DNA from: a bacterium
GTDB taxonomy: Bacteria; UBP6; JAFGXH01
Direction of reading: 5' to 3'
Length of the DNA stretch: 64,000 bases
Assembly: GCA_027064085.1 (NCBI GenBank)
Contig: JAMOQH010000141.1
Span: forward strand, 1 to 64,000
A program made the position numbers and the translations under genes. Of the stretch, positions 2,878 to 64,000 are shown in pieces (position 1 is the first letter of the stretch; each line of letters starts with the position of its first letter). The notes under the pieces were generated by a model. That model did no database searches and had not been told where the DNA came from. It worked only from the letters and a program-made list of their open reading frames with translations.

Positions 2878-2944
2878 AAAATAAAGAAAATTATTTACAA
2901 AGAGTAAAAAATATAATAAAATGTAGTGTTTTAGGATCTTTATT

Positions 2945-3898
2945 ATGATTACAATTAATGATTTTTTAAAAAAATATAAAGAAGATTTATCAATTACTTC
3001 AGTATTTGAGAATAATGCTTTAGAAAATCAAATAAAAACTTATAATATTCAAAAAACTGCATTAGCCTTAACAAAAGGAATGGCTAATTCGGTGTATAAT
3101 CACAGAATTCAAATTTTTGGAAGAATGGAATTTTCTTATTTAATAAAAAATATTGATACTATTGAAAAAAATATTAAAGAAATTTTTGAAACTAGAATTA
3201 TTCCTGTAATTATACTAACTAACTCTTTAGAATTTCCTGATGTTGTAAAAAAGCTGGCTCTTGAATATAATGTTGTTTTAATAGTAACAGATTTGGAAAC
3301 TGAGAGATTTATTGACATCATTACACATATACTCAGAGATATTTTTGCTAAAGAATTAACCCTACACGGCTCTCTTATCGATGTTCATGGGGTGGGATTA
3401 TTATTATTAGGTAAATCAGGAATTGGAAAATCTGAAACAGCTCTTGAACTTGTTGAAAGAGGGCACAGATTTGTTGCAGATGATGTAATTAAAGTGAAAT
3501 ATTCAGGTGGTGATTTTGTTTATGGTTATGCTCCTGAAATTTTAAAACATCATCTTGAAATTCGTGGAGTTGGTTTAATAAATATAAGAGCATTATTTGG
3601 AATTGTATCTGTAAGGGATAGAAAAAAAATAGAAATGGTAATTGAATTAGTAGACTGGGATAAAACAGAAAATTATGATAGAATAGGAATAAGAAAACAC
3701 TATTACACATTATTGCATGCAAAATTACCATACTTAAAACTTCCTCTTAGGCAAGGAAGAGATATTGCAACAATAATTGAAATTGCAGTTAGAAACCAAT
3801 TAGCAAAATTACAAGGATTTGATGCTGCACAAGAATTTAATGATAAATTATTAGCCCAAATTTCAAAAAATAAAAATGCTTTGGAGGTAAGAGAGTGA
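2945..3898 (+). CDS. hprK: HPr kinase/phosphorylase
   Basis: Bifunctional enzyme that phosphorylates and dephosphorylates the regulatory serine of HPr. The length (317 aa) is normal for the family. The P-loop GKSGIGKS is at residues 156-163, followed by ETALELVERGHRFVADD, the DD being the conserved catalytic/Mg-binding pair. The family signature EIRGVGLINIRALFG and the LVDWDK segment follow. It opens an operon hprK-rapZ-ptsH-ptsI in which consecutive genes overlap by 1-4 bp. An AGGA sits 8 bases before the start. HprK with HPr but without EII genes is the arrangement of regulatory PTS systems in many non-enteric Gram-negatives. Confidence 0.95.
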   Translation: MITINDFLKKYKEDLSITSVFENNALENQIKTYNIQKTALALTKGMANSVYNHRIQIFGRMEFSYLIKNIDTIEKNIKEIFETRIIPVIILTNSLEFPDVVKKLALEYNVVLIVTDLETERFIDIITHILRDIFAKELTLHGSLIDVHGVGLLLLGKSGIGKSETALELVERGHRFVADDVIKVKYSGGDFVYGYAPEILKHHLEIRGVGLINIRALFGIVSVRDRKKIEMVIELVDWDKTENYDRIGIRKHYYTLLHAKLPYLKLPLRQGRDIATIIEIAVRNQLAKLQGFDAAQEFNDKLLAQISKNKNALEVRE

Positions 3899-4737
3899 AC
3901 ATTGTTATAGTGACAGGTCTTTCTGGCTCGGGTAAATCTAGTGTATTAAACTATTTAGAAGATAAAAATTTTTATTGTGTTGATAACCTACCATTAGTTT
4001 TAATTGATAAATTCTTAGAAATACTTGAAAAAACCAATTATGAAAATATAGCTATTGGTATAGATATTAGAGAATACTTAATTTCTGAAGATTTTGAAAA
4101 ATTTGAAAACATTAAAAATAGAATAGAAAATGTTTTTATTCTATTTTTAGACACAATAACAAAAGAATTATATAAAAGATACAACGAATCAAGAAGAAAA
4201 CATCCACTAAATGAAACAAATTTAGAGAAAGCTATTGAAAAGGAAAAATATATACTAGAACCTATAAAAAAAGATAGTGATTTCGTTTTGGATACTACAA
4301 ATTTACCTTTAAAATCATTATATAAAGAATTAGATAATATTTTTAGATTAAAAAAAGATGAATCAAATTTTTTTATTAATATTAGTTCATTTGGATTTAA
4401 ATATAGTAATTTTAAAAATTCTCATCTAATGTTTGATGTTAGATTTTTACCAAACCCATTTTTTATTAAAGAATTAAAGCATAAAACTGGTTTAGATGAT
4501 GATGTTTATAACTATGTCTTAAACCACAATGAAACAAAAGAATTCTTAAAGAGGTTAGATTACATTATAAATTACTTATTACCTCTGTATGAAAAAGAAG
4601 GTAGACATTATTTAAATATTGCAATTGGCTGTACAGGAGGAAAACATCGTTCAGTATCAATTGCAAGATACCTACATAAAAAACTATTAAAAAATTACAA
4701 TGTAACAATTACGCACAGGGAAATTAAGGGGGATTAA
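3895..4737 (+). CDS. rapZ: RapZ/YvcJ-family nucleotide-binding protein
   Basis: P-loop protein of the RapZ (YvcJ) family. The Walker A motif GLSGSGKS lies at residues 8-15, and the C-terminal family hallmark GCTGGKHRSVSIARYL is present. In E. coli RapZ delivers the small RNA GlmZ to RNase E and so controls glmS; in Gram-positives YvcJ has other roles, so the role here is not fixed by homology. The start is GTG at 3895, overlapping the hprK stop (GTGA), with a strong GGAGG at 3883-3887; translational coupling is likely. At 280 aa it is family-typical. glmS lies only about 5 kb away on the opposite strand, which makes a functional link worth considering. Confidence 0.93.
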   Translation: MNIVIVTGLSGSGKSSVLNYLEDKNFYCVDNLPLVLIDKFLEILEKTNYENIAIGIDIREYLISEDFEKFENIKNRIENVFILFLDTITKELYKRYNESRRKHPLNETNLEKAIEKEKYILEPIKKDSDFVLDTTNLPLKSLYKELDNIFRLKKDESNFFINISSFGFKYSNFKNSHLMFDVRFLPNPFFIKELKHKTGLDDDVYNYVLNHNETKEFLKRLDYIINYLLPLYEKEGRHYLNIAIGCTGGKHRSVSIARYLHKKLLKNYNVTITHREIKGD

Positions 4738-59334: not shown

Positions 59335-60219
59335 TTAAATATTATTTTTCAATAAAACATCATACTCTTTTAACTTCTTATTTAGCTTCTTTATATCATA
59401 AATAACATCATCTGCCAAATTTAATAAATTCCTATCAAGACTCTTGCTTGTGTCCATATTATCAAGAGTTTCATTTAAGGCATTTAAAATATCAGAATTT
59501 GATTTATTATGTATTTTTGAAATCTTTAAAATTTCATTTGCATTTTCTTTTAAATTCACCACCTGCTTTTCAATATTTACAGTTATATTTTTTGAGATGT
59601 TATTTGTTTGTAAAATCAGCTTATTAATATCATTTTCTTTGATATTTTTTTCTATTTTTTTTAATTCTTCTATATTTTTTTTAATTTTTGATAAATTTTC
59701 ATTTTCTTTTTTTAGTCTTTTCTCCACACTGATTAATTCTTCATTTTGCTTTAAAACAGTGTTATACTTTTCAATAACATCATCAATATTTTTTTTCTTT
59801 TCAGAAATCAAAGAAATAAAATTATCATCACTTTTATCTATTTGTGGTAATATTTTTGTAAAAAAATCAGAAATTCTTTTAGCAGAATCATATTCAAGAG
59901 TAATAACTAAGTCTTCAATATCATCAACAGAATCAAAATCAACTTTGCAGGCAAGCTCTTCTATAAAAGTTACAAGTTTAACATAATTTTCAAATTTATC
60001 ATTAGAAGTTTTTGCTTTTTTTAATTTATCCGTTAAATTTTCAATATTTTTTATATCAGTATTTGATAAATTGCCAACAAGTATTTTTTTTTTAACACAA
60101 CTGTTAGTACTTGAAGTATCCTTTCCCCTAACTTTAACATCTTTCACAACTTCTTTACTACAATTAGGACATTTATTTCCCAAATAAACAGGACTATGCC
60201 CACAATTTTTACATTTCAT
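59335..60219 (-). CDS. Zinc-ribbon coiled-coil protein
   Basis: 294 aa, no signal. N-terminal zinc ribbon MKCKNCGHSPVYLGNKCPNC (two C-x-x-C pairs), then a basic linker and a long helical coiled coil from about residue 50 to the end, with heptad-rich Lys/Glu/Leu segments (ENENLSKIKKNIEELKKIEK). No known family. Last gene of the six-gene minus-strand cluster; it follows the second zinc-ribbon gene by 15 bp with AAGGGA in front. The coiled coil suggests an oligomer or filament-type partner. Confidence 0.7.
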   Translation of the reverse strand: MKCKNCGHSPVYLGNKCPNCSKEVVKDVKVRGKDTSSTNSCVKKKILVGNLSNTDIKNIENLTDKLKKAKTSNDKFENYVKLVTFIEELACKVDFDSVDDIEDLVITLEYDSAKRISDFFTKILPQIDKSDDNFISLISEKKKNIDDVIEKYNTVLKQNEELISVEKRLKKENENLSKIKKNIEELKKIEKNIKENDINKLILQTNNISKNITVNIEKQVVNLKENANEILKISKIHNKSNSDILNALNETLDNMDTSKSLDRNLLNLADDVIYDIKKLNKKLKEYDVLLKNNI

Positions 60220-60234
60220 TGTTTTCCCTTATTA

Positions 60235-60735
60235 TTATTTTTTAAACCATGAGTTAGGAAGTCTGACTTTATTTACCTTATCATCATAAAAAGAAAGTCC
60301 TACATAATCCTCCTCACCTCCATAATACCAATAATAATCCGTAATTTGATCAGGTTTACCTAATTCCATTAAAACCGCAGCCTTACCGTAACCTTTAAAA
60401 CTCTTCCAAAATTTCATTTTCTCTATTAAATCTGTTGGCACTTCAACAAGTTTTTTAGAAGAATCAGAAAATTTCTTGGCTTGTTTTGGGTTACTTAATA
60501 TCTCTTCTAAATCATTTACCCTATTTTGTAATTTTTTAATATCCTCATAAATAGGGGACAAATCAACTTTACTTTTTTCTTCATTCCCTTTTGCAAGAGA
60601 TACTGATTTATCATCTATGAGCATATCCTGATTTTTCTCTGGTTTAACAAAGTAAGCCTTAAAACTATTACCACATTCAAAGCAAAAATTAGCCTTATCT
60701 TCACATTTAGTATTACATTTACTACATATTTTCAT
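60235..60735 (-). CDS. Zinc-ribbon protein with BamE/SmpA-like C-terminus
   Basis: 166 aa. The N-terminus MKICSKCNTKCEDKANFCFECG is a zinc ribbon (C-x-x-C ... C-x-x-C). The middle is a helical linker. The last ~60 residues (FKGYGKAAVLMELGKPDQIT, then DYYWYYGGEEDYVGLSFYDD and KVNKV) follow the BamE/SmpA-like motif: helix, V-x-x-x-L-G-x-P-D, Y-W-Y, and a strand with F-x-(D/x)-D-K-V. BamE itself is a lipoprotein; this protein has no signal and so is cytoplasmic. Zinc-ribbon plus BamE-like fusions are unusual. AAGGGGG precedes the ATG. Confidence 0.7.
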   Translation of the reverse strand: MKICSKCNTKCEDKANFCFECGNSFKAYFVKPEKNQDMLIDDKSVSLAKGNEEKSKVDLSPIYEDIKKLQNRVNDLEEILSNPKQAKKFSDSSKKLVEVPTDLIEKMKFWKSFKGYGKAAVLMELGKPDQITDYYWYYGGEEDYVGLSFYDDKVNKVRLPNSWFKK

Positions 60736-60744
60736 ATTTCCCCC

Positions 60745-61269
60745 TTAAAATCCTTTATAGATATCAAATCCAAGCATTATTATCAAAATAATTAATAAAA
60801 AAATCATCATATTGGTTTTTAAAGCCAAATCATCTTTTTTCTGAATTTCATTATCTTCAGTTTCTATTTCAATAATTTCTTTTTTTTCTTTATCTATTAC
60901 CCCACCTTCAATTATTTCTTCTATAACTCTTGCTTCTTTATTATCAACAGGACTAACCCTTTTATCTAATTTATCCTTTAATAAAGCCACCTTATCCTTA
61001 AATTCGTCATCTTCGTCACTAATAGCAGGAAATACAGTTTGATAAAATTTTAACAACTTTAAAGAAGTATTGTTACATTCAACAACAATATCAATAATAT
61101 CATCAAGTTCATCTTCTGTTTCTATATTAGAAATATTCTCTAAATTAATATCATCTATTATAAATTTAGCAAGCTCTGCTGATAATTTATCCTTTTCTAT
61201 AGAATTATCTTTCTCTTCATTCCATATTTTCCACAAACCATTAACTTGATGCTTTAAACTTTCATTCAT
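60745..61269 (-). CDS. C-tail-anchored membrane protein
   Basis: 174 aa from the ATG at 61269 (MNESLKHQVNGLWKIWNEEK), placed by GGAG; a longer frame is created only by a 24-bp direct repeat that includes this start. An acidic helical cytoplasmic domain (DELDDIIDIVVECNNTSLKL) ends in one hydrophobic segment (MMIFLLIILIIMLGFDIYKGF) at the C-terminus, so it is tail-anchored. No family is recognised. It lies between the coiled-coil gene and the BamE-like gene and could tether the complex to the membrane. Confidence 0.65.
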   Translation of the reverse strand: MNESLKHQVNGLWKIWNEEKDNSIEKDKLSAELAKFIIDDINLENISNIETEDELDDIIDIVVECNNTSLKLLKFYQTVFPAISDEDDEFKDKVALLKDKLDKRVSPVDNKEARVIEEIIEGGVIDKEKKEIIEIETEDNEIQKKDDLALKTNMMIFLLIILIIMLGFDIYKGF

Positions 61270-61284
61270 TTTACATGCTCCATT
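61261..61284 (-). repeat. 24-bp direct repeat carrying the start of a gene, copy 1
   Basis: Identical to 61580-61603. Each copy spans the GGAGCATGTAAA ribosome site and the ATG-Asn-Glu beginning of the following gene, and the sequence is the end of the Hsp70-like gene in the right-hand copy. Confidence 0.85.
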
Positions 61285-61285
61285 T

Positions 61286-61588
61286 TCAATATTTATCAAT
61301 TTCATCTTCAAGTATTTTTACCCTTAATAATATTTTAGAAATCTCCTCTCTTAAGTAAAATGTCTCTGATTTTAATTTTGAAACTTCTTCATTTAATTTA
61401 TGATTCGCATAAATACTATTAATTTCAATTGTTTTCTTCTCATTTTCAGATTCAACTAATTTATACTCTAATTGCATTACCTTATACTCTAATTTCATTA
61501 CAGATTTAAAATCATAATCATCAATATTCCTTGAACTTATATACTCATCTTCTGGCTCAACAAAAAATAATTTACTATTTTCATTCAT
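61286..61588 (-). CDS. Small coiled-coil protein
   Basis: 100 aa starting MNENSKLFFVEPEDEYIS. The rest is a predicted coiled coil (VMQLEYKLVESENEKKTIEI, LKSETFYLREEISKILLRVK). No domain is recognised. The start ATG overlaps the Hsp70-like stop as ATGA, so translation is coupled. Its small size and coupling fit an accessory subunit or nucleotide-exchange-type partner of the Hsp70-like protein, but that is inference. Confidence 0.7.
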   Translation of the reverse strand: MNENSKLFFVEPEDEYISSRNIDDYDFKSVMKLEYKVMQLEYKLVESENEKKTIEINSIYANHKLNEEVSKLKSETFYLREEISKILLRVKILEDEIDKY

Positions 61589-61603
61589 TTTACATGCTCC
61601 ATT
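61580..61603 (-). repeat. 24-bp direct repeat carrying the start of a gene, copy 2
   Basis: Second copy of the repeat at 61261-61284. Here it encodes the last residues of the Hsp70-like protein (Met-Glu-His-Val-Lys-stop) and the first codons of the coiled-coil gene. Upstream of the tail-anchored gene the same bases are non-coding, so this copy is probably the original. Confidence 0.8.
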
Positions 61604-63147
61604 AAATCACCTAAATTTATTTTATTTTCTTTTCCTTCATTTTTATCTTTAATGTGAATATAATAACATCTATTTTCATCCATAGAAAATGCTATTTGCC
61701 ATTTATTTCCCCATACAGGATTGGGTAAATACTTACTTAAAGGAGATAATTCAAAAGGAATATGACCATTTTCAGAATCAATAAAAAGCTTCATTGACCT
61801 CTTAAAGGCATCCCTATTAGGCAAACCGATATACTCTTCCTTATAATTTGCAATTTTAGAATCTTTTAAAGAAATACCTTTATTTAAAGAAATAAAATCA
61901 ACTTTATTTTTATTTTCATCATAAGTTGTAATTCCAATACTCAAAGGTACAACAGTATCCAGCGATATTAATCCAGCTGATAAAATAGCAGCCCCTTTCG
62001 CTATTGCAAGGTTTTTATCACTGTCAATAAAAGTAGAATCAAATCTAAAATCAGTTGATGCAACCGATGAAAAGAAATCCATAATAGTTTTTTCTACTAA
62101 ATAGAAATTACAGAATCCACCAACAAGTAAAACCCTAAATTTATCAGGATTATTTACATCAATATTATGACTAGAAAATGTTTTTGAGATTTCATCAAGT
62201 TTTTCTATTATGATATTTTTTATTTTATCATCAAAAACCTTACATAAATTACTAGGTTTACAAGGATTTCCACTTACAGTAAATAATTTTCTATTTCTAG
62301 ATTGCTCTTTTAAATAACGAGGAATATTTTTATCCAAAGTAGTTTTTTGACTAATTTTTTTGTACTCAAAATCTATAATTGCCTCATAATATTCCTCACT
62401 TGAAGAGTGGACATAATTATTTTCTTCAAAAATATTTTGAACAACTGCATCATCATAGGCAACCCCTGCACTCCCTAATGATTCATGAGTTAATTTGCCT
62501 GCACCACTTGATTCAAGTATTTTTACTTCTGCTTTACTTAATTTTGATAAACTAATATCAAGAGTTCCACCTCCAAAATCACAAACAAGTAAATGCCCTG
62601 TAAAATGAGTATTGTAATTTTTATGATATAAATATGAATAATAAGCAGACGCAGCAACAGGCTCACTTACAAGTTTAACATTTTGTCCTATATTTTTCTT
62701 GCATATTTCTAGTAAAGTTTCACGCCCTTTATGATTTCCATCTTTAAGCCATATTTCAGGAACTGTAACAGTAAAACTCTTTATATCACTTTTAGAAAAT
62801 TTTTGTGTTTTGCAATATTCATCAATAAGATATGAAATATATTTTTCAGCTATTTCTACTGGTGTTTCTTTAGAATTTTCAGGCCAGTCAAACTCCTCTA
62901 AAATATCAGAATCAGTTTCCTGTAAAAGCATTTTAAACTTTGAATAAACATCATATTCAGTATTTCCTGTTTTACCTTTTGCATCATCTCCAATTGAGAT
63001 ATCACCATCTTCTTTAGAAACAGCAAAGTAAGAAGGAATATACTTTTCCATTGAGGCTAATTCAAAATTCATTATACTATCGGTATTTTCATCATAATAT
63101 GCAATAATACTATTTGTAGTTCCAAAATCTAATCCTATATTTTTCAT
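61585..63147 (-). CDS. Hsp70/DnaK-like ATPase
   Basis: 520 aa. Actin-fold ATPase motifs: IGLDFGTTNSIIA (phosphate 1, residues 4-16), LVSEPVAASAYYSY (connect-type region), LVCDFGGGTLDISL (phosphate 2), and LLVGGFCNFYLVEK (adenosine). After the ATPase domain come about 110 residues with LSIGITTYDENKNKVDFISL, the usual beginning of the substrate-binding domain, but the helical lid is missing; full DnaK has ~630 residues. The N-terminus lacks the TIKS-type DnaK start. It is the second gene of the AAA/zinc-ribbon cluster, 11 bp after the AAA gene. It is not the housekeeping DnaK (no grpE or dnaJ next to it). Confidence 0.9.
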   Translation of the reverse strand: MKNIGLDFGTTNSIIAYYDENTDSIMNFELASMEKYIPSYFAVSKEDGDISIGDDAKGKTGNTEYDVYSKFKMLLQETDSDILEEFDWPENSKETPVEIAEKYISYLIDEYCKTQKFSKSDIKSFTVTVPEIWLKDGNHKGRETLLEICKKNIGQNVKLVSEPVAASAYYSYLYHKNYNTHFTGHLLVCDFGGGTLDISLSKLSKAEVKILESSGAGKLTHESLGSAGVAYDDAVVQNIFEENNYVHSSSEEYYEAIIDFEYKKISQKTTLDKNIPRYLKEQSRNRKLFTVSGNPCKPSNLCKVFDDKIKNIIIEKLDEISKTFSSHNIDVNNPDKFRVLLVGGFCNFYLVEKTIMDFFSSVASTDFRFDSTFIDSDKNLAIAKGAAILSAGLISLDTVVPLSIGITTYDENKNKVDFISLNKGISLKDSKIANYKEEYIGLPNRDAFKRSMKLFIDSENGHIPFELSPLSKYLPNPVWGNKWQIAFSMDENRCYYIHIKDKNEGKENKINLGDLMEHVK

Positions 63148-63158
63148 TATTCTCCCTT

Positions 63159-64000
63159 TTATAATCTTTCTGGAATATCCTCTGCTAATAATTTTACTAA
63201 ATCATCTTTTGATAAATCCACATTTTCATTTTCTAAAATTCTTTCTCCCAAATTTTCTACCATTAAATTAAAACAATTAATCGCATCACCTGCATTTCCA
63301 AAATTTTCTTTTTTTAATTTCTTTGTTTTTAAAAATAAATCAAGTAAAGCCTGCTTTAATCTTTCATCAAGAATATATTCCTGCTTTTTTGCATAATTTT
63401 TTATAACAGTAAATAATTCATCAGAAGTAAAATCATCAAAGATTATTTTTCTTGAAAATCTTCTGTCTAGCCCCGAATTATTATTTAAGAAATTATTCAT
63501 TTCTTTTGAATAACCTGCACCTATAATTAACAAATTTCCATTATATTTAGTCATTGCAGGCACTAATACATTATTAATAACATCTTTTCCATAGCTTTCT
63601 CCTAAACTTCCCTCTGTTAAGCCATAAATTTCATCAATAAATAATATCCCACCCATAGCATCTTCTATTAATTTCTGGGCTTTAACTTCACTATCTCCAA
63701 CAACATTAGCTATTAAATCTTTTGCACTAACATCAAGTAATTTATCAGATGGTAAAACCCCTAGTCCATTTAGTAGTTTTCCCATTAACCTAGCCACAGT
63801 TGTTTTTCCAGTTCCAGGATTTCCAATAAATAGCATATGCAAATTTTGATTTTTTAAAACTTTAAGTCCTTTCTTTTCACGAATTTTATTTAACTTAACT
63901 CCCTTTATTAATTTATTAATTTGATTTTTAACAGAATTTAACCCTGTCATAGAATTCAACTCTTCTAAAACCTCTTCAAAGGAGCTTTTACTATTTATAG
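63159..64000 (-). CDS. CbxX/SpoVK-type AAA+ ATPase, 5'-partial
   Basis: The frame is open to the right edge of the window (SSFEEVLEELNSMTGLNSVK in the upstream-reading part), so the start is outside; the TTG at 63959 and the ATG at 63950 are internal. LNSMTGLNSVKNQINKLIKG, Walker A FIGNPGTGKTTVARLMG, Walker B GGILFIDEIYGLTEG, and the Arg-finger GLDRRFSRKIIFDDF are typical of CbxX/CfqX (SpoVK) AAA+ proteins, including the EELxxxxGLxxVK start. In Rubisco operons CbbX is a Rubisco activase; no Rubisco is present here, so it must act on another partner, probably in the cluster with the Hsp70-like gene. Confidence 0.9.
   Translation of the reverse strand, partial: INSKSSFEEVLEELNSMTGLNSVKNQINKLIKGVKLNKIREKKGLKVLKNQNLHMLFIGNPGTGKTTVARLMGKLLNGLGVLPSDKLLDVSAKDLIANVVGDSEVKAQKLIEDAMGGILFIDEIYGLTEGSLGESYGKDVINNVLVPAMTKYNGNLLIIGAGYSKEMNNFLNNNSGLDRRFSRKIIFDDFTSDELFTVIKNYAKKQEYILDERLKQALLDLFLKTKKLKKENFGNAGDAINCFNLMVENLGERILENENVDLSKDDLVKLLAEDIPERL

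Follow-up and report, generated by a model that had tools for sequence, protein, structure and literature searches.

As described in passages of Bell et al. (2024; PMC11090510), type III-A CoCoNuTs are characterized by the gene order CnuH-CnuE-CnuB-CnuCD; to this are added a TerY-P triad (frequent but not part of the core), duplicated vWA genes, a CARF effector and an added cassette of AAA+/FtsK-type ATPases. These features are shared by a minus-strand operon of a UBP6 bacterium (assembly GCA_027064085.1; 3.65 Mb in 195 contigs), whose end lies in the stretch of DNA analyzed here (the window), i.e. the first 64,000 bases of contig C141 (JAMOQH010000141.1; 87,428 bases). Judged from their sequences and gene order, the six genes located at this end (59335–63998) are the 3′ part of a type III-A CoCoNuT/TerY-P/CARF operon, a named kind of system. 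They belong to a cassette that begins two genes upstream of the gene for a triple-AAA protein, with a radical SAM gene followed by a coiled-coil gene, and that recurs in other bacterial phyla.

Extent of the operon and its CoCoNuT III-A genes

The six minus-strand genes were found at the positions given in the original prediction and are as tightly spaced as described there, with gaps of 15, 9 and 11 bp; the Hsp70-like gene and the gene for the small coiled coil overlap by 4 bp (ATGA). The proposed left border is also clean: hutH, encoded on the other strand, is convergent to the last gene of the operon, at a distance of 134 bp. The view of the six genes as a self-contained unit is ruled out, since the same minus-strand operon continues past position 64000 for approximately 23 kb, up to the contig end at 87428, and comprises approximately 20 genes. 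It had been anticipated that sequence beyond this point would reveal further members, and radical SAM, coiled-coil and CoCoNuT genes were indeed found there. The intergenic gaps from the TPR (tetratricopeptide repeat) gene through to the last gene do not exceed 15 bp, and several genes overlap. One of these overlaps (8 bp) connects the start of the radical SAM gene with the stop of CnuCD, which suggests translational coupling.

The genes were compared with three plasmid loci matching type III-A subtypes, from Klebsiella, Caballeronia and Photobacterium (L120–L122), and were found to be colinear with them. Each of the plasmid loci carries its own extension (SpoVK, FtsK/WXG100 and a 3′ ATPase, respectively). 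Clear similarity was observed for CnuB (71845–74532; 33–37% identity over 710–918 columns), a coiled-coil protein with an McrB-like GTPase domain that contains a Walker A motif at residue 545 and the diagnostic NxD motif (MNEDE) at residue 677, and for CnuH (76738–80085; 32–36% identity), a UPF1-like superfamily 1 helicase encoded upstream of CnuE and matched by the Pfam families AAA_11 and AAA_12. In type III-A systems, CnuCD combines DUF2357 with Hsp70-like, CSD and HEAT domains and lacks PD-(D/E)xK. The CnuCD candidate of the operon (67716–71876) contains DUF2357 (E = 4e-9) and aligns weakly, sharing 22% identity over 916 columns with CnuCD of Photobacterium, while its S1/Tex-like matches reach E values of 0.1–0.5 only. 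The similarity of CnuE (74534–76738) to the CnuE set is weak, and its match of the winged helix-turn-helix (wHTH) type (E = 6e-4) lies below the cut-off; this wHTH/HEPN-type protein has two RX4H motifs, at residues 466 and 695. The second of these is not shortened, whereas passages of Bell et al. (2024; PMC11090510) give a shortened second HEPN motif (RxH) for CnuE of type III-A.

The TerY-P triad is supported both by Pfam and by homology to the three plasmid triads. It is composed of vWA (82970–83536, with a second vWA gene at 82239–82967; 41–45% identity), PP2C (81526–82236; 30–33%) and a kinase (80094–81518; 30–34%), whose putative zinc ribbon was recognized from one CxxC in the motif scan together with reading of the sequence. 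The product of the gene at 83537–84988 is a full-length match to the PADLOC family CARF1-CARF_HEPN (E = 3e-117) and contains an RX6H motif; it is a predicted CARF-HEPN RNase. On the 5′ side the operon contains genes for a TPR protein (84999–86264) and a calcineurin-like metallophosphoesterase (86636–87427), the latter cut by the contig end, with a small open reading frame (ORF) between them.

A Cas10-like ORF (921 aa; below the family cut-off) was detected elsewhere in the genome, on contig C136 (positions 2881–3930; L131, L132). Cas10-like ORFs are a possible source of cyclic oligoadenylates for the CARF-HEPN protein of the operon.

Recurrence of the cassette in other bacteria

Three radical SAM proteins were aligned to search a species-level genome collection, and the best 80 loci were kept, which is a selection and not a census. 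After clustering of the ORFs, the radical SAM gene was retained in 79 loci. These were accompanied by genes for a coiled-coil protein (47/79), an AAA+ protein (43/79) and Hsp70 (25/79), nearly always on the same strand. Since nothing but the radical SAM gene had been used to select the loci, the co-occurrence of the other cassette genes constitutes independent evidence. According to the record titles, loci with the core genes are distributed over at least eight phyla: Bacillota, Cyanobacteriota, Planctomycetota, Thermodesulfobacteriota, Pseudomonadota, Bacteroidota, Chloroflexota and Actinomycetota.

The order radical SAM, coiled coil, AAA, Hsp70 and a helical or coiled-coil protein, with occasional insertions, was found in Desulforhabdus (L049), Brocadia (L041) and a metagenome-assembled genome of Bacillota (L050), which are near the top of the matches for each cassette component. 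The shared order includes a relative of the tail-anchored protein, and in L049 and L050, zinc-ribbon proteins are encoded after or within the cassette. A Calothrix plasmid (L012) carries homologs of the radical SAM (40% identity), coiled-coil (31%), AAA+ (32% over 890 columns) and Hsp70 (25%) proteins, and no CoCoNuT genes. Among the collected loci, phmmer matches to CnuB, CnuCD and CnuE were obtained only in the operon described here. Neither individual cassette proteins nor alignments of two rows gave useful results as queries against the relatives' genomes and IMG/VR.

A profile was built from four helical proteins that follow Hsp70 or flank radical SAM in other loci, with the protein of the window left out. 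It recovered the 188-aa tail-anchored protein among 1614 proteins (E = 7e-6), and a reversed-sequence control gave no match. By this leave-one-out test the tail-anchored partner is a recurrent family as far as sequence similarity goes; the scan for a membrane anchor covered the proteins of this operon. The original prediction had left it to a genome search whether the neighborhood would recur, and this proved largely to be the case. The AAA+ and Hsp70 genes are neighbors in other phyla as well, where they are accompanied by relatives of the tail-anchored protein and of the zinc-ribbon proteins, so a joint function of the cassette genes is likely; the BamE-like label, also part of that proposal, is unsupported (see below).

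The core loci are divided into two branches. The branch to which the window belongs contains Hsp70 and zinc ribbons and no TerD. In the second branch, mostly from gut Clostridia, one to four TerD genes are present, often preceded by a P-type ATPase gene (both named by sequence reading rather than by profile), and a kinase and vWA in some cases. The AAA proteins of this branch contain three P-loops where complete, and the branch is devoid of Hsp70 and zinc ribbons. Hsp70 was found in 20 of the 41 core loci without TerD and in none of the 16 with TerD (Fisher p 4e-4, indicative because the loci are related by descent). Two N-terminal CxxC pairs are present in 8.4% of the ORFs when core loci lack TerD, but in 0% of those of the TerD loci; where the core is missing, the share is 0.3%. 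The gene order TerD, radical SAM, coiled coils and AAA can be seen in e.g. L019 (7378–20563), L051, L060, L069, L075, L102 and L109.

The relatives also carry variable effector-type domains. A trypsin-like protease is fused to the AAA protein in L049 and L050, and a WD40-TIR protein is encoded in Brocadia L041. Further variable domains of the Hsp70 branch and its neighbors are zinc ribbons combined with WD40, RCC1 or Lcl_C.

The surroundings of several loci contain other recognizable genes. In Desulforhabdus, homologs of SspB and SspC, of phosphorothioate-linked defense, are encoded upstream of the cassette at a distance of approximately 8 kb (L049, 1–1836). Four consecutive genes for kinases with tetratricopeptide repeats (Pfam was run on one of them) are located directly upstream of the Brocadia cassette (L041, 414–9830). 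Two cyanobacterial radical SAM loci (L012, 103–5773; L014, 14948–20663) adjoin genes for small GTPases and their partners, which resemble the DO-GTPase/GAP1 systems reported by Kaur et al. (2020). Plasmids of Moellerella (L015, 4632–14585), Polaromonas (L016, 2746–12657) and Leisingera (L017, 2195–12597) share a five-gene set encoding a UPF1/CnuH-like helicase, a PIN-domain protein, a hypothetical protein, an AAA ATPase and a related radical SAM protein; this set may be a further accessory system linked to radical SAM.

Proteins of the cassette

The radical SAM protein (67118–67723) is nearest to NrdG and pyruvate-formate-lyase activases, and the CxxxCxxC cluster motif is visible in the alignment. 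Identity with NrdG was rejected (TIGR02491, 107.6 bits; cut-off 126.1), as was identity with viperin (NCBIfam, 23 bits; cut-off 180; PADLOC pVip only 8e-6). The adjacent gene (65792–67111) encodes the cassette coiled-coil protein, modeled as long helices with a small C-terminal domain. The fold matches of this domain (KA1-like and others, Z approximately 6 to 9) are too weak for naming, and no Foldseek match below E 0.001 was obtained for the protein.

The triple-AAA protein (63159–65789; 876 aa) is represented in the window by its C-terminal third only (63159–63998), which comprises the second AAA+ domain and the lid. Its assignment to AAA+ proteins of the CbxX/SpoVK type is borne out there by Pfam (AAA, E = 5e-16; AAA_lid_6, 1e-9), but this describes only the last third of a protein in which two P-loop domains are intact and another is degenerate. 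The Walker A and B motifs are intact in both C-terminal domains. A model of the N-terminal 340 aa of the Brocadia homolog (L041; mean predicted local distance difference test score, pLDDT, 80) resembles AAA modules from the proteins Yta7, Vps4 and p97, the best match having a Z of 12.4 over 204 residues (root-mean-square deviation 3.9). On the strength of these fold matches, the N-terminus is best read as a putative degenerate third AAA-like domain.

The Hsp70-like ATPase (61585–63147; 520 aa; Pfam HSP70, 1.1e-16) retains the phosphate and adenosine motifs (GLDFGTTNS, DFGGGT, VGG). It had been described as lidless, in agreement with a Pfam match that stops at profile position 495 of 599. The protein was rejected as DnaK or HscA, since the lid is absent and the equivalog cut-offs were not reached (HscA, 78 bits, cut-off 709; DnaK, 65 bits, cut-off 823). 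In a phylogenetic tree it falls into a 15-member clade of cassette Hsp70s from five phyla (support 100/100), outside of which the three cellular Hsp70s of the same genome are placed; long branches and an unusual composition were flagged for its row, which makes its exact placement unsure.

The 100-aa coiled-coil protein (61286–61588) has no homolog that could be found in other cassette loci. The next gene (60745–61311) encodes the 188-aa helical protein and starts with TTG, which gives a 26-bp overlap; an internal ATG at 61269 is also possible and would leave a 16-bp gap. The tail anchor reported earlier is supported by hydropathy scanning. The protein has one hydrophobic stretch near its C-terminus (KD19 2.50 at residue 162) and is the only strong transmembrane candidate of the operon.

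The remaining two genes encode zinc-ribbon proteins, as had been recognized; motif scanning detected two CxxC pairs at each N-terminus. The 166-aa protein (60235–60735) consists of the zinc ribbon (CSKC...CFEC), a linker/coiled coil and a C-terminal module. Its zinc-ribbon half resembles a protein of the Desulforhabdus cassette (E = 2.5e-5). The C-terminal module had been called BamE-like, but no BamE/SmpA match was found in Pfam or among PDB sequences at E values up to 10. The last gene of the operon (59335–60219) encodes a 294-aa protein in which a zinc ribbon (CKNC...CPNC) is followed first by a helical region and then by a long coiled coil. A profile for the helical proteins linked to Hsp70 matched it weakly (E = 2.4e-8) as long as the tail-anchored protein and coiled coils were among the seed sequences; no match was reported once these had been removed.

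Possible function and relationship to known systems

We lean slightly towards the view that the cassette is an ATP-driven assembly switch and the whole operon a layered anti-phage/stress system ending in RNA cleavage. The AAA ring, with one degenerate and two active modules, would sit on the coiled-coil scaffold, and Hsp70 would serve as a conformational switch, so that the AAA protein might remodel, hold or release an effector. The tail-anchored protein would place the assembly at the membrane, the zinc ribbons may act as adaptors, and the radical SAM enzyme would install a modification on a partner. The effector slot, which in the relatives may be filled by the WD40-TIR protein or the AAA-fused trypsin-like protease, would here find its output in the HEPN RNases of CnuE and the CARF protein, resulting in RNA cleavage and growth arrest. 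We infer an anti-phage role, a complex and a radical SAM target.

Several observations weigh against this view. The combination of the cassette with CoCoNuT was encountered only in this genome, and the trypsin, TIR and WD40 modules are absent from its operon, so that the link to the HEPN effectors would follow only from membership in one operon. Motif scanning detected no glycyl-radical motif in the operon proteins. The CoCoNuT functions themselves are predictions in the source paper, as stated in passages of PMC11090510. Finally, since TerD genes are present in 16 of the 57 core loci, none of which contains Hsp70, the core may primarily serve a response to metal or chemical stress.

This last point leads to the explanation that the cassette is a Ter-type module for chemical or metal stress (membrane protein repair or quality control), which protects the cell, has no anti-phage role and is co-transcribed with CoCoNuT by chance. 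It would fit the mostly clostridial loci with TerD, often a P-type ATPase and in some cases a kinase and vWA, as well as the connection of vWA/PP2C/kinase triads with tellurite resistance made in passages of PMC11090510. We nevertheless regard it as unlikely, because the branch resembling the window lacks TerD, which never occurs together with Hsp70 in the set, because relatives in this branch carry TIR or trypsin-like domains, and because the cassette is here in one operon with RNase effectors. A possible but somewhat doubtful alternative is that CoCoNuT III-A and a radical SAM-AAA-Hsp70 system, each complete and independent, share a promoter and no mechanism. The separate existence of both parts is consistent with this, as the three plasmid loci contain CoCoNuT III-A but not the cassette and the reverse is true of the other core loci. 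The coupling suggested by the 8-bp overlap argues against it, as do other ATPase cassettes that, according to passages of Bell et al., are closely built into operons of type III-A and in some cases occupy the 3′ end. The probabilities that we attach to the assembly switch, the stress module and the two independent systems do not sum to one because these readings overlap (a module for stress might likewise be separate in its mechanism). That the arrangement is due to chance or to an artefact of a fragmented metagenome assembly is highly improbable: the assembly is split into 195 contigs and one contig end cuts the operon, but GC content and strand skew are even across the CnuCD-radical SAM junction, the genes overlap there, and the cassette has the same order in other phyla.

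PADLOC analysis of the six proteins gave weak generic matches only and no known defense system. The original prediction knew of no named system of this composition. This stands for the cassette, for which the literature search yielded no description (the search did not extend to Anantharaman et al. 2012, cited in PMC11090510 on Ter systems in general, or to the supplementary files of Bell et al., in which an earlier mention is possible), but not for the operon as a whole, which is of the named CoCoNuT III-A/TerY-P/CARF kind. While the upstream system is thus already known, there is a real chance that the cassette represents an undescribed class. We tentatively suggest that the radical SAM-coiled coil-triple AAA core, with its Hsp70, helical/tail-anchored and zinc-ribbon partners, may form an undescribed, multi-phylum class of nucleoside triphosphate (NTP)-driven conflict systems, in which the radical SAM enzyme would arm a chaperone-type switch with exchangeable effectors, and that it was captured here by CoCoNuT. 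A testable question raised by this proposal is what the radical SAM substrate is and whether its modification arms the effector.

The TerD-linked loci described above share with the cassette the core of radical SAM, coiled coils and AAA (three P-loops), and in some cases a kinase and vWA, but contain TerD and a P-type ATPase in place of its Hsp70 and zinc ribbons. EccA, SpoVK and CbbX belong to the same AAA subfamily with AAA_lid_6; the AAA protein of the operon scores far under their equivalog cut-offs, is longer, and has two active domains and a degenerate one. The NTP-dependent conflict systems of Kaur et al. (2020; PMC7159879) are similar in having a constant NTPase/chaperone core, variable effectors and signaling domains, and vWA partners, and some include Hsp70. 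Their cores consist of a MoxR AAA+ and vWA or of a DO-GTPase and GAP1, and the passages of that paper that were searched do not contain a SpoVK-type AAA in combination with radical SAM and a lidless Hsp70.

The SpoVK extension described in passages of PMC11090510 is located between the vWA genes and is active in its C-terminal AAA domain only, whereas two intact P-loops are present here; orthology was rejected, as the Klebsiella example aligns with the AAA protein over 73 residues only. Radical SAM is not mentioned in the main text of that paper. Compared with the type III-A CoCoNuTs, the operon thus differs in an extension at its 3′ end, composed of radical SAM, coiled coil, triple AAA, a separate lidless Hsp70, and tail-anchored and zinc-ribbon proteins. 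It adds to these systems a fourth, 3′-placed kind of extension, which is a portable cassette found in at least eight phyla and which brings together radical SAM and an AAA+/Hsp70 pair, an unusual combination for a defense-type locus.

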